DNA from: Pontibacter lucknowensis
GTDB taxonomy: Bacteria > Bacteroidota > Bacteroidia > Cytophagales > Hymenobacteraceae
DNA: 64,000 nucleotides
Direction of reading: 5' to 3'
Assembly (NCBI RefSeq): GCF_900156415.1
Contig: NZ_FTNM01000001.1
Location: forward strand, 1,325,221 to 1,389,220
This document shows, piece by piece, positions 1-63,037 of the stretch. Position 1 is the first letter of the stretch, and every line of letters starts with the position of its first letter. A program made the translations under genes and the position numbers. The notes under the pieces are model-generated. The model worked only from the letters and a program-made list of their open reading frames with translations. It had not been told where the DNA came from and ran no database searches.

Positions 1-433
1 TAGCGGGCTGTTGTGTTATGATAGGCCTTACTGAGCGGATTATTGCGCTCAGCAGAACAGCCAGCCAGTATAAGGCAGGACAGCAAGAAGAGAATATATG
101 ATGGGTTTTTGCTCAAAGTATCGATCGTGTGCAGCATATATAAGGCAGTCCGGCCGCCTATTCCATTATAACGGCCTGGCTATACCTGAAAGTATCTGGG
201 CCAGGATGAGGCTTAAGCCTCAAGCCATCTACAAAAATACAATAATATGCCAATTATGTAAGGGGCTGTGGATAAAGCCTGAAGCCCGGTATTGAACTAT
301 AGAAAATAAGAAATGGTTTCAGCCCTCAGAAGGCATTTGAGGCACCTTAAAAAGCTGGCGAAATAAAACTGATTTGCAGAGAAGCCCATGAAAAAAGCGT
401 AATTTTACAAATCCTTGAAAAACAAAGCAGCGC
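1..433. other. Non-coding leader upstream of the ATP synthase operon
   Basis: I see no convincing gene here; the only open frame (98-295) has no family resemblance. The stretch holds several inverted repeats: GGCTGTT (6-12) with AACAGCC (56-62) enclosing CTGAGCG (31-37)/CGCTCAG (46-52), and the 14-base palindrome GAGGCTTAAGCCTC at 208-221. One copy of the dispersed TATACCT motif lies at 181-187. No TTG-N19-TAnnTTTG promoter stands out, so the operon promoter is unassigned and may lie left of the window. Confidence 0.5.
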
Positions 434-664
434 ATGTCACAGGCAGATGATCAAAAGCCAAAGGGCGAAGAATCGTTTAAATCGTACCTGAAGTACTCGG
501 GGCTGGCCTTTCAGATGATCGGGGCGATGGTGCTGGCCGCCTGGGCAGGCTCCAAGCTGGACGACTACATGGGCAACGAGAACCCCTGGATGACGATTGT
601 GCTGCTCGTAGTGGCCGTAGTAGCCTCTATGGTATTGGTAATTATCTCATTAAGTAAAAAGTAA
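434..664 (+). CDS. AtpZ/AtpI family ATP synthase accessory membrane protein
   Basis: A 76-residue protein at the head of the ATP synthase operon. After a short charged N-terminus it has two predicted membrane helices (about 20-38 and 50-72) separated by a loop with the family signature GSKLDDYMG. AtpZ/AtpI proteins are non-essential helpers of Fo assembly, thought to aid c-ring formation or Mg2+ supply. The stop lies four bases before the next start, so it is co-transcribed with the downstream membrane gene. Family assignment rests on the loop motif, length and position; its exact role is not shown by the sequence. Confidence 0.85.
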   Translation: MSQADDQKPKGEESFKSYLKYSGLAFQMIGAMVLAAWAGSKLDDYMGNENPWMTIVLLVVAVVASMVLVIISLSKK

Positions 665-668
665 AGCA

Positions 669-1052
669 GTGAAATTCTTCAAAAACCTCCTCATTTTTAC
701 TGGTGTCGTGAGCATCGGTATTGGCTTGCTCTCCTTTTATACCGGCACGGCGCTATTGCACCCACTGATCTGGTTTATATTAGGCTTTATGGTGGTAGTT
801 ACGGCGCTGGCCTTTTATGTGTCGCGACTGGGCGTTGGCTACGACCCCGATAACTTTCAGTTGTATTACTTTGGCTCGATGGGTTTCCGGATGATCCTCA
901 GTATAGCGGTTATTTTTATTTATGTGTTCATGTACTCTGAAAATGAGCTGCAGTTCGTTTTCAACTTCTTTGCCTTATATTTTCTATTTACCGGGTTTGA
1001 AATCTACAGCTTAATAACTAACTTCGCACCGCAATTGAAAAAGCAAAACTAA
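669..1052 (+). CDS. Hypothetical four-helix membrane protein of the atp operon
   Basis: A 127-residue, very hydrophobic protein with about four membrane helices (roughly 7-25, 31-51, 70-92 and 94-116) and a short basic C-terminus. It sits between the AtpZ-like gene and atpB, the place where many bacteria carry atpI, so a role as an AtpI analogue in Fo assembly is a reasonable inference. I see no diagnostic motif. The start is the ATG's near neighbour at 669 (GTG), four bases after the preceding stop, consistent with tight translational linkage. Confidence 0.7.
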   Translation: MKFFKNLLIFTGVVSIGIGLLSFYTGTALLHPLIWFILGFMVVVTALAFYVSRLGVGYDPDNFQLYYFGSMGFRMILSIAVIFIYVFMYSENELQFVFNFFALYFLFTGFEIYSLITNFAPQLKKQN

Positions 1053-1096
1053 GAATAGCATTTGCGGATTTTAAATTTGCTTCTAAATCTCTCTTA

Positions 1097-2134
1097 ATGA
1101 AGAAGTTATTTATTTTACTGTTTTCCTTCCTGACGATCACTGCTTCTGCAGAGGCTCCGGTTGAAGGCGGCGAGTTCAAGCCAGGCGATATGATCACCCA
1201 TCACATCGCGGATGATTACAACTGGCATTTTGCCGATGGTGTAACGCTCTACCTTCCTGTTATCCTGATCGATAACGGTACACCAAAGGTGTTTTCATCA
1301 AGTAACTTCTATGACGAGAATCACGAGTTGGTGCCTTATGAAGGTTACATGGTGAGTCATGGTCACATCTATCGTGCTGATGCCAACGGACAGCCAGCCG
1401 CGGACCAGTCTTCTCTGATTGACATATCTATTACAAAGAACGTTGCTTCTCTTTTCCTTAGTGTGGCCCTGCTTTTTGCAGTTTTCTTCACAATCGCTGG
1501 AAGCTATAAGAAAAACAACGGCAAAGCGCCAAGAGGCATTCAGTCTTTCTTTGAGCCAATCATCATCTTTATCCGTGACGAGATTGCCAAGGCGAACATC
1601 GGTCCGAAGTATGAGCGCTACATGCCATACCTGCTGACAGTTTTCTTCTTTATCTGGTTCAACAACCTGCTTGGTTTGATGCCAGGTGGCGCTAACTTGA
1701 CTGGTAACATCGCAGTTACACTGGTACTGGCTACACTGACACTTTTGATCACCGTATTTAGCGGCAACAAAAACTACTGGAAGCACATCTTCGCTACACC
1801 AGGTGTTCCTGTGTGGCTGGCTCCGATCATGATCCCGGTTGAATTGATTGGTATCATTACCAAGCCATTCTCCCTGATGGTTCGTCTTTTTGCCAACATC
1901 ACGGCAGGTCACATTATCATCCTGTCGCTGTTTAGCTTGATCTTTATTTTCCAGAGCATTGCAGTAGGTCCTTTGAGTGTGGCGTTTGCTACTTTCATGA
2001 ACTTCCTTGAGCTGTTCGTGGCATTGCTTCAAGCGTATATCTTCACGCTGCTGTCAGCGATGTATTTCGGTGGCGCAGTGGAAGAGCATGACCATGTAGG
2101 TGACCACGGTCATGGAGATGGTGCGCATCATTAA
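1097..2134 (+). CDS. atpB: ATP synthase Fo subunit a
   Basis: Subunit a forms the proton half-channels next to the c-ring. The 345-residue protein starts with a signal-peptide-like segment (1-20) and an extracytoplasmic extension to about residue 115, followed by the membrane domain. The conserved segment MVRLFANITAGH carries the essential arginine at residue 263. The C-terminus is a His/Asp/Gly-rich tail (HDHVGDHGHGDG), a possible metal-binding or merely flexible end. At 345 residues it is longer than the 270 or so usual in proteobacteria because of the N-terminal extension, which is common in Bacteroidota. Second-frame and antisense open frames over it are shadows. Confidence 0.97.
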   Translation: MKKLFILLFSFLTITASAEAPVEGGEFKPGDMITHHIADDYNWHFADGVTLYLPVILIDNGTPKVFSSSNFYDENHELVPYEGYMVSHGHIYRADANGQPAADQSSLIDISITKNVASLFLSVALLFAVFFTIAGSYKKNNGKAPRGIQSFFEPIIIFIRDEIAKANIGPKYERYMPYLLTVFFFIWFNNLLGLMPGGANLTGNIAVTLVLATLTLLITVFSGNKNYWKHIFATPGVPVWLAPIMIPVELIGIITKPFSLMVRLFANITAGHIIILSLFSLIFIFQSIAVGPLSVAFATFMNFLELFVALLQAYIFTLLSAMYFGGAVEEHDHVGDHGHGDGAHH

Positions 2135-2171
2135 TCTGTTTTTTATTTTTTAACTATATATAACTATAATT

Positions 2172-61578: not shown

Positions 61579-61644
61579 ATAGTAATTGTTTATTATATTG
61601 AAGCATGAAAGCTAAATAGTTCGGGGTGTGGCGACTGGCCTTTC

Positions 61645-61663
61645 ACACTATATTATATAGTGT
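61645..61663. promoter_or_regulatory. Palindrome between gcvP and the LKR-like gene
   Basis: ACACTATATTATATAGTGT is a perfect 9+9 inverted repeat around one T, in the divergent spacer. It could be an operator; the binder is unknown. Confidence 0.4.
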
Positions 61664-61745
61664 ACCTCTATATAAGGTGTAGCGCCTGGCTTTCCCCAGA
61701 CTGACAAACATAAATTGCAGCAGAACAATTCAGAAACACGCACCT

Positions 61746-62966
61746 ATGGAAAAAGTTAAGATCGGTATCATCAAGGAAGGCAAAATACCAGTTGACAAGC
61801 GCGTACCGCTCACCCCGAAAAAATGTGTGGAGGCCATGCAGGAGTTTCCGGGAGCGGAGGTGGTGGTGCAGCCCAGCGACGTGCGCTGTTTTACCGACGA
61901 AGAATATGCCGAGCTAGGTATAAGCCTGCAGCAGGATCTGAACGATTGCGATGTGCTGATGGGCGTAAAGGAAGTGCCCATCGACCTACTGATTCCAAAC
62001 AAAACGTATTTCTTTTTCTCCCACACGATAAAGAAGCAGCCGCACAACGCCAAACTTCTGCGGGCTGTGCTCGACAAGAACATTACTTTAATAGATTACG
62101 AACTCCTGACCAATGCACAGGGGCAGCGGGTAGTGGCTTTTGGCAGGTATGCAGGTATAGTGGGTGCCTACAACGGTATATTAACCTACGGCAAGAAGTG
62201 GAAGCTCTTCGACCTGAAGCCCGCCTACCTCTGCCACGAGATGGAAGACATGCAGGAGGAGTACTTTAAAGTGAAGCTGCCGCCGATCAAAATTGCTGTG
62301 ACAGGCGGTGGCCGCGTGGCAAGCGGCGCCATGGAAGTGCTCGATAAGATGGGCATCAAAAAAGTGAGCGTATTCGACTACTTATATAAGCAGTTCAAAG
62401 AACCCGTGTATGCCCAACTGCATTCCGGCGATTACAACAACCGCCCTGATGTAGAGGTATGGGACTCGCCAGACTTCTATGCGCACCCTGAGTTATACCA
62501 ATCCACGTTCCGCAAGTTCACTAAGGTAACCGATTTGCTGATGGCATGCGCCTATTGGGACCCACGTGCCCCAAAACTGTTCTCCGAAGAGGACACCCGT
62601 CAGCCCGACTTCAAAATTGACACCATCGCCGACATCACCTGCGATGTGGATGGCTCTATACCTACCACCAAACGTGCTACCACAATTACGCAACCTGCCT
62701 ACGACTACAATCCAGAGACGGGCGAGCTCGAACCTCCTTATAATAAAAAGGACAACATCACCATAATGGCTGTCGACAACCTGCCTTGTGAACTACCCCG
62801 CAACGCTTCCCGGGATTTCGGCCGCCATCTTATAGACAATGTATTCCCGCAGTTCTTTAATAACGATGAAGGAGGTATGCTGGAGCGAGCTACCATTACA
62901 AAAGGGGGAGAACTGACCGAAAGGTATAAGTACCTGCAGGAGTATGCCGAGGCAGCGGCGGTGTAA
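61746..62966 (+). CDS. Lysine-ketoglutarate reductase/saccharopine dehydrogenase-like oxidoreductase
   Basis: 406 residues with an alanine-dehydrogenase/PNT-type N-terminal domain (KIGIIKEGKIPVDKRVPLTPKKC) and an NAD(P)-binding domain (IKIAVTGGGRVASGAMEVLDKMG). The C-terminal CDVDGSIPTTKRATTITQPAYDY...NITIMAVDNLPCELPRNASRDFG resembles the LKR part of the lysine-degrading enzyme AASS more than alanine dehydrogenase. It may make or split saccharopine, but a plain amino-acid dehydrogenase cannot be excluded. It faces gcvP across 256 bases. Confidence 0.75.
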   Translation: MEKVKIGIIKEGKIPVDKRVPLTPKKCVEAMQEFPGAEVVVQPSDVRCFTDEEYAELGISLQQDLNDCDVLMGVKEVPIDLLIPNKTYFFFSHTIKKQPHNAKLLRAVLDKNITLIDYELLTNAQGQRVVAFGRYAGIVGAYNGILTYGKKWKLFDLKPAYLCHEMEDMQEEYFKVKLPPIKIAVTGGGRVASGAMEVLDKMGIKKVSVFDYLYKQFKEPVYAQLHSGDYNNRPDVEVWDSPDFYAHPELYQSTFRKFTKVTDLLMACAYWDPRAPKLFSEEDTRQPDFKIDTIADITCDVDGSIPTTKRATTITQPAYDYNPETGELEPPYNKKDNITIMAVDNLPCELPRNASRDFGRHLIDNVFPQFFNNDEGGMLERATITKGGELTERYKYLQEYAEAAAV

Positions 62967-62985
62967 AGAACAAACGACTTTAATA

Positions 62986-63037
62986 ATATAATAGGAGAGG
63001 TATAGCCATTAGTTTAGCTATACCTCTCCTATTATAT
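62986..63037 (+). terminator. Perfect 21-bp hairpin containing two motif copies after the LKR-like gene
   Basis: Arms 62986-63006 and 63017-63037 are exact inverted repeats around a 10-base loop; each arm includes AGGTATAG (inverse CTATACCT in the second). The stem is AT-rich at the base and no long T-run follows, so it may be a terminator or the uptake-signal-like doublet described in the findings. Confidence 0.75.

Follow-up and report, generated by a model that had tools for sequence, protein, structure and literature searches.

AGGTATA is, by a wide margin, the most over-represented 7-mer in the counted parts of the genome of Pontibacter lucknowensis, and is analysed here starting from a stretch of 64,000 nucleotides (the window; NCBI RefSeq assembly GCF_900156415.1, contig NZ_FTNM01000001.1, positions 1,325,221 to 1,389,220). 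We give roughly even odds (about 50%) to the word acting as an uptake-sequence-like self tag for DNA from close kin, a reading suggested by analogy with known uptake sequences.

The window holds 117 exact copies (AGGTATA 63, TATACCT 54), the first at 181-187 and the last at 63019-63025. A preliminary description of the same DNA had tallied about 105-110 copies, one per 600 bases, against about 8 expected by chance, with both orientations used about equally. The exact count is slightly higher than that tally, base composition gives an expectation of 7.6, and the balance of orientations extends to the whole 4.47-Mb genome, which contains 7,101 copies (3,600 + 3,501) against 300 (148 + 152) of a reversed-word control. 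Markov models of order 1, 2 and 3 predict 4.8, 12.3 and 24.4 copies in the window, the higher-order expectations being raised because AGGTATA itself feeds them. From order 0 up to order 3 no other 7-mer of the window ranks above the word, and at order 4 a single one does, whereas at the maximal order (5) it lies outside the top 7-mers because its sub-words hold the same excess. A genome sample made up of the window and 19 further stretches (444 kb) contains 721 AGGTATA sites, 41 of them supplied by the single stretch L032, and 183 copies of the closest one-letter neighbour, AGGTATG.

The preliminary description had placed the sites in several codon frames, considered protein sequence insufficient to explain them, and called for heptamer counts against a Markov and codon background. 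Within 370 open reading frames (ORFs; longest-ORF calls) of the 444-kb sample, 546 copies are present against 64.4 +/- 7.3 in 200 synonymous-codon shuffles, and the enrichment appears in all six frames. The excess thus stands both at Markov orders 0-3 and over the shuffles, and codon bias is therefore no explanation. AACTATA, counted in genome G028, likewise exceeds its codon null (617 observed, 94.9 expected). A neutral origin, be it as a by-product of mutation or codon-pair bias or as a mobile repeat dispersed in the genome, would account for the abundance and nothing further; with the shuffles exceeded in both genomes, flank similarity ending after two or three bases, contrary to a mobile repeat, and the word depleted in plasmids of three strains, contrary to mutation bias, this explanation is extremely improbable.

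Coding sequence is not where the word is densest. In the window, 90 of the 117 sites lie inside the 50 ORFs taken as main (1.63/kb), and 27 lie outside them or cross an ORF edge (3.05/kb); in the 444-kb sample the densities are 2.31 per kb in spacers and 1.46 in genes. Convergent spacers are the densest spacer class, at 4.15 and 10.99/kb against coding values of 1.46 and 1.92, the value of 1.46 being that of this genome. Word density climbs where sequence is least constrained. A separate observation concerns L032, where 20 same-strand copies at 5734-11797 (G000:C5:75734-81797; G000 is this genome) lie 231-234 bp apart or at approximate multiples of that distance; this array is probably a single gene for a tandem-repeat protein, most of whose units contain the word.

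At orthologous loci of other Pontibacter, the leading 7-mer varies by lineage. With genomes called word-rich at 0.8/kb, a cut-off of our own choice applied to whole-genome counts (genome sizes other than that of G000 being rounded), 39 of 50 Pontibacter genomes are word-rich: 21 with AAGTATA (4,114-11,818 copies per genome), 12 with AGGTATA (5,748-9,303) and six with AACTATA (8,118-13,168). TATA is the constant part of these three dialects, while the letters before it differ (AAG, AGG and AAC below), and a T directly after TATA is rare in all three alike (4% each). Around the 721 AGGTATA sites the preceding base is C in 49% and the following base is G in 54% and T in 4%; one position further out, C is weakly preferred, and the flank bias is confined to the nearest bases. 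Eleven of the 50 genomes fall below the cut-off (G008, G014, G017, G027, G029, G033, G035, G036, G037, G041 and G047), among which G041 (3,132 AGGTATA) and G017 are intermediate. Two words stand at a high level in G013 and G045, and less so in G015 and G049; the pattern in G013 and G045 looks as a dialect switch in progress would.

Several candidate words were rejected. An apparent fourth dialect, TAGTATA (L023, L027), is a 5-bp tandem repeat, and both loci are AAGTATA after masking; CTACCCC (L124) and TTTAAAA (L104) are lost from the top 7-mers once masked. Long TAGTA arrays occur in P. mucosus and P. litorisediminis (L023 from 17601, L027 from 17481). Weakly raised words were also seen in word-poor Pontibacter at L083 and L139 (G035) and L100 (G033), namely TATATAA/CTATATA, and CTCTACC and AGTTTGGG; these may be further dialects or chance.

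The dialects follow descent. On a species tree that was built from eight proteins with a short search and comprises 30 rows, L024 and L029 being less than half filled, and with dialect labels taken from one 13-22 kb locus per species, AGG forms one clade and AAC forms one clade (Shimodaira-Hasegawa-like approximate likelihood ratio test, SH-aLRT, 100). The labels change 5 times on the tree against 15.5 when shuffled, and 0 of 200 shuffles were as low. AAG lies on both sides of the tree, which makes AAGTATA the likely ancestral word. At one locus per species, no word was found in the basal Botryobacter, P. beigongshangensis and P. qinzhouensis, nor in P. harenae and P. diazotrophicus, which are nested inside the tree. 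This genome shares 96% identity with Pontibacter sp. FD36 over the eight concatenated proteins, and the TonB receptor encoded in the window has Pontibacter matches of up to 94% identity. Among AGG relatives, AGGTATA sites are kept in 231 of 334 comparisons, in which a single window site is counted up to 11 times, whereas an average 7-mer is kept in 32% and a word with two G/C in 40%; the word ranks sixth of 369 common words in conservation, and two of the five above it overlap AGGTATA. The check on related species that the preliminary description proposed thus finds the sites conserved in AGG relatives and other words in use in sister lineages.

Foreign DNA, plasmids included, is expected to be poor in uptake sequences. 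Conjugation genes are present on three complete plasmids of the AAG strains P. actiniarum, P. akesuensis and P. kalidii (the first two plasmids mobilizable per PLSDB), which carry 80, 34 and 20 copies against 171.6, 150.6 and 129.9 predicted from chromosome density, a deficit of 2-6.5 times relative to their own chromosomes; their word density (0.27-0.39/kb) is nevertheless above that of the reversed-word control (28, 17 and 5 copies). As to small contigs, G006:C6 stands at 0.53 against 2.33, G022:C4 has zero words in 5.9 kb, and G025:C18 (26 kb) carries the word at genome level. Plasmid depletion therefore argues against mutation bias and against agents acting on all cellular DNA, and it is consistent with copies building up as imported chromosomal DNA recombines with homologous sequence. 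The same chromosome specificity favours an organising site, bound on the chromosome only by an intracellular nucleoid, segregation or recombination protein whose shifts in specificity would make the dialects; the presence of the word on both strands, its density peaks in gene-free spacers and its vertical inheritance also agree with such a site. Against this, 11 of 50 congeners lack such a word at a high level, and spacing is uneven: AGGTATA gaps show slight clustering and a long tail (16 gaps above 3 kb against 4.3 expected), and no even spacing was found. We also know of no protein with a site every 330-1,200 bp, a further point against an organising site, which we regard as unlikely.

Neighbouring AGGTATA pairs less than 60 bp apart are inverted in 45 of 110 cases, and no excess of inverted pairs was found among close pairs, overlapping palindromes excepted (the window has 3 copies of the palindrome AGGTATACCT; Table 1). 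A hairpin or terminator role is accordingly rejected, and the earlier statement that sites lie in hairpins does not hold in general. Over all stretches including L032, the G-rich strand carries 384 AGGTATA and the other strand 333 (p 0.06); with L032 removed it has 377 of 676 (55.8%, p 0.003). The remaining 209 letter permutations of the word place 5,588 of 10,016 copies on the G-rich strand, an identical 55.8%, so that the slight bias is compositional. For AACTATA in G028 the counts are 547 and 489 (52.8%, p 0.077; 18 of 20 stretches with clear skew). Neither word has the strong leading-strand orientation bias of Chi or of FtsK orienting polar sequences (KOPS), and the argument against a Chi-like role drawn earlier from the lack of strand bias is borne out. 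A recombination or segregation signal of either type would suit a short, asymmetric, sharply defined and chromosome-enriched 7-mer, but the strand shares count against it, as does the density of Chi, which is far below that of AGGTATA; we consider this explanation very unlikely.

A density similar to that of the Pontibacter word is reached by HIP1 (highly iterated palindrome 1). A HIP1-like element, listed with a modification target among the earlier options, would require that a conserved methyltransferase reads the word and that linked repair makes or keeps it, the dialects tracking the enzyme. Our search covered three adenine methyltransferase families (N6_Mtase, N6_N4_Mtase and D12), with C5, Eco57I and MT-A70 outside it. 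Each of the 50 genomes has N6_Mtase matches above the curated cut-off, some of them weak or partial (the best is 7e-5 in G010 and 1.5e-4 in G032, both word-rich), and several unrelated enzymes could share one target; N6_N4_Mtase (31 of 50) and D12 (13 of 50) are patchy, and none of the three families has a strong match in every word-rich genome. G010 combines 9,120 copies of AAGTATA with no match to N6_N4_Mtase or D12 and two weak N6_Mtase matches alone (frames of 394 and 290 aa), which are taken as candidate RNA or protein methyltransferases. HIPs are palindromic and track methyltransferases, whereas AGGTATA is asymmetric, and the plasmids are depleted in the word. Both the HIP1-like and the modification option are thereby weakened, and we find the former distinctly improbable. 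In its favour, cyanobacterial HIP1 and alternate HIPs are described in PMC4390886 as accompanying a methyltransferase that acts on the sequence in question; they resemble the Pontibacter words in being highly iterated and in that other words substitute in some lineages.

Core competence genes are widespread in the genus. ComEC matches were found in 50 of 50 Pontibacter genomes and DprA matches in all 44 examined. Stop codons interrupt both ComEC and DprA in G021 and G040, which fits one pathway lost twice; the matches listed for these two genomes in the pilus-ATPase, DUF5689 and methyltransferase profile searches are without stops. An erosion of the word after competence loss is unsupported, since G040 is as rich in it as its kin and G021 is not below the intact G001. 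The type IV pilus/secretion ATPase (PF00437) has matches in 50 of 50 genomes, 3 of them over the cut-off, each match listed extending over no more than about 66 of the 370 positions of the profile (with up to 31 candidates scored per genome). On PF00437 alone, pilins themselves not having been searched, no pilus uptake machine with a pilin receptor was found; as the pilus ATPase was not found, the ComP-type pilin route is probably absent and a ComP-type pilin receptor in Pontibacter is unlikely. Where a 3.8-kb comEC locus was cut from a word-rich genome (L051-L080), it is denser in the word than that genome in 23 of 23 cases, by a median of 2.0 times; there being no control gene, no inference is drawn.

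Transformation without pili has been described elsewhere in the Bacteroidota. According to parts of PMC8459023, Riemerella anatipestifer, for which no pilus homologues were found, needs ComEC, DprA, ComF and RecA for transformation, together with four further proteins unlike known machinery; one of these is predicted to be an outer-membrane barrel and another is a surface protein with DUF5689. Sections of PMC7965970 indicate that in R. columbina own DNA competes at a dose that has no significant effect when the DNA comes from R. anatipestifer or Escherichia coli; in these sections no uptake word is established for Riemerella and the top k-mers are A/T-rich strings, and the k-mer table given there for three Flavobacteriaceae is the nearest precedent for the present counts. 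Pontibacter thus resembles Riemerella (Flavobacteriaceae), a pilus-less member of the Bacteroidota with ComEC, DprA and, in R. columbina, a preference for self DNA, but differs in that the DUF5689 surface protein is unmatched in this genome. No Riemerella-like gene cluster around comEC was recognised in the L084 gene list, judged by eye without a domain scan. DUF5689 proteins were rejected as readers of the word: their distribution is patchy, and among the three that were scanned a nuclease-type protein and two neighbours of SusD-type genes were seen.

If AGGTATA is a self tag, a DNA receptor belonging to a transformation machine without type IV pili would read it, and tagged DNA would be bound and imported preferentially. 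Recombination of such DNA into the chromosome would let new copies accumulate, a biased-uptake drive. A change in receptor specificity would have led from AAGTATA to AGGTATA in one clade and to AACTATA in another, after which old sites would decay and new ones spread. DNA uptake sequences (DUS) of the Neisseriaceae are 10-12-mers, 12 being their upper length; the Pontibacter word is a 7-mer with a TATA core, found once per ~330-1,200 bp in Bacteroidota in which the pilus ATPase was not found, and its uptake role is proposed from its distribution. In other respects the two are alike, for parts of PMC3630211 describe DUS as present in thousands of copies, with dialects that combine a conserved 3-nt core with a variable part and are congruent with the species tree, and with some relatives that have none. 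The uptake signal sequences (USS) of the Pasteurellaceae are similarly short, asymmetric, iterated words with subtypes (parts of PMC3630211). Membership in the DUS/USS class is not claimed, as the pilus feature failed and the function is one that we infer. Tentatively, and as a possibility that falls short of even odds, the Bacteroidota may here have their first uptake-sequence system, which would also be the first to work outside type IV pilus machines, with a TATA-cored 7-mer read by an entirely different kind of receptor that has changed specificity at least twice, leaving three mutually deaf exchange groups. Among the titles and abstract openings listed in searches of open-licence literature, none mentions a word of this kind in Pontibacter or other Bacteroidota.

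Several observations weigh against the uptake reading. No receptor for the word was found, and DUF5689 is absent from this genome while present in 22 of 50. ComEC also occurs in word-poor genomes, so that the word cannot be predicted from the core competence genes; G040, with stops in ComEC and DprA, is word-rich like its kin, and G021, at 1.0/kb, is not under the intact G001 (0.82/kb). Plasmid depletion would also suit a protein that binds the chromosome alone, or plasmids of recent arrival. USS has extended AT-rich flanks, which the Pontibacter words are without, and phylum and machinery differ as well. AGG columns that are AAG sites in AAG species number 13 of 79 (shuffle mean 0.3, maximum 5), only modestly more than the 0-6 columns shared by one-step control words; judged from these alignments, some sites appear to have switched in place between dialects and most to have turned over. 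Open-licence literature pairing Pontibacter with natural transformation was limited to a LexA paper. The uptake option of the preliminary description is thus strengthened by the dialects, their congruence with phylogeny and the plasmid depletion, its function being what we infer; none of the options offered there (uptake, HIP1-like, repair or nucleoid site, modification) is proven.

Outside Pontibacter, five other genera of the family were sampled with 32 stretches of 20 kb each (seven re-run masked) and further families of the order with 12 stretches of 6 kb each; in none of these stretches was a NNNTATA-type word the top 7-mer. Other words were raised in these samples. The palindrome CCTAGG is over-represented in L110, L112 and L115 (G052, G061 and G073, one family genus, code g4), with ACCTAGG at 16-23 per 20 kb against 1-2 expected after masking; unlike the Pontibacter words, it is possibly HIP-like. 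CATTGCC is raised, in 20 kb each and unmasked, in L101 (G050; 20 against 2.8), L111 (G057; 19 against 4.4) and L119 (G058; 18 against 3.8), which represent three other genera of the family, and AATATT is among the strongest other words in L106 and L107.

Table 1. Positions of AGGTATA and of its overlapping palindromic form in the window; the sign after each start gives the strand.
Feature	Position	Strand	Remark
AGGTATA copies	181..63025	both (63 +, 54 -)	exact string count; starts in rows below
AGGTATA starts, row 1	181- 2586+ 5956- 6020+ 7237- 7398- 7641+ 7644- 8328- 8882+ 9429- 9685- 9813+ 10250- 10736+ 10974+ 11266- 11311+ 11547+ 12042-		
AGGTATA starts, row 2	12096- 12408- 13358+ 13437- 13702- 13826- 14460+ 17469- 17719+ 18221+ 18287+ 18344- 18802+ 19307+ 19830+ 19905- 20415- 20495- 20882+ 21257-		
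AGGTATA starts, row 3	21528+ 21709- 23508- 24530- 24696+ 25724+ 26048+ 26195+ 26237+ 26841+ 27395- 28060+ 28982- 30133- 30190- 30274- 31769+ 32785- 32899- 34267-		
AGGTATA starts, row 4	35830+ 35854+ 36678+ 37404+ 37482- 37568+ 37893- 38480+ 39322+ 39559+ 40568+ 40598+ 41305+ 41308- 41659+ 42174+ 42733+ 43623- 44005- 45517-		
AGGTATA starts, row 5	46223+ 48544+ 49483+ 49626+ 49629- 49793- 50054- 50145+ 50567- 51203+ 51380+ 52012- 53840+ 54667- 55414+ 56004- 56265- 57112+ 57130+ 57143-		
AGGTATA starts, row 6	57293- 57350- 57477- 57933+ 58315+ 58392+ 58417+ 58551+ 59675+ 60914+ 61257- 61916+ 62153+ 62657- 62922+ 62998+ 63019-		
Palindromic double site AGGTATACCT	7641..7650		two copies overlapping, opposite strands; exact positions
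Palindromic double site AGGTATACCT	41305..41314		exact positions
Palindromic double site AGGTATACCT	49626..49635		exact positions

How DNA is recognised and imported in pilus-less Bacteroidota is the question addressed here. Three dialects, genomes with two words at high level and word-poor relatives make this question directly testable, for the receptor should vary in step with the word. If the uptake reading is true, self-recognition in DNA uptake would have arisen independently of pilins, and the words would mark gene-exchange barriers between lineages.

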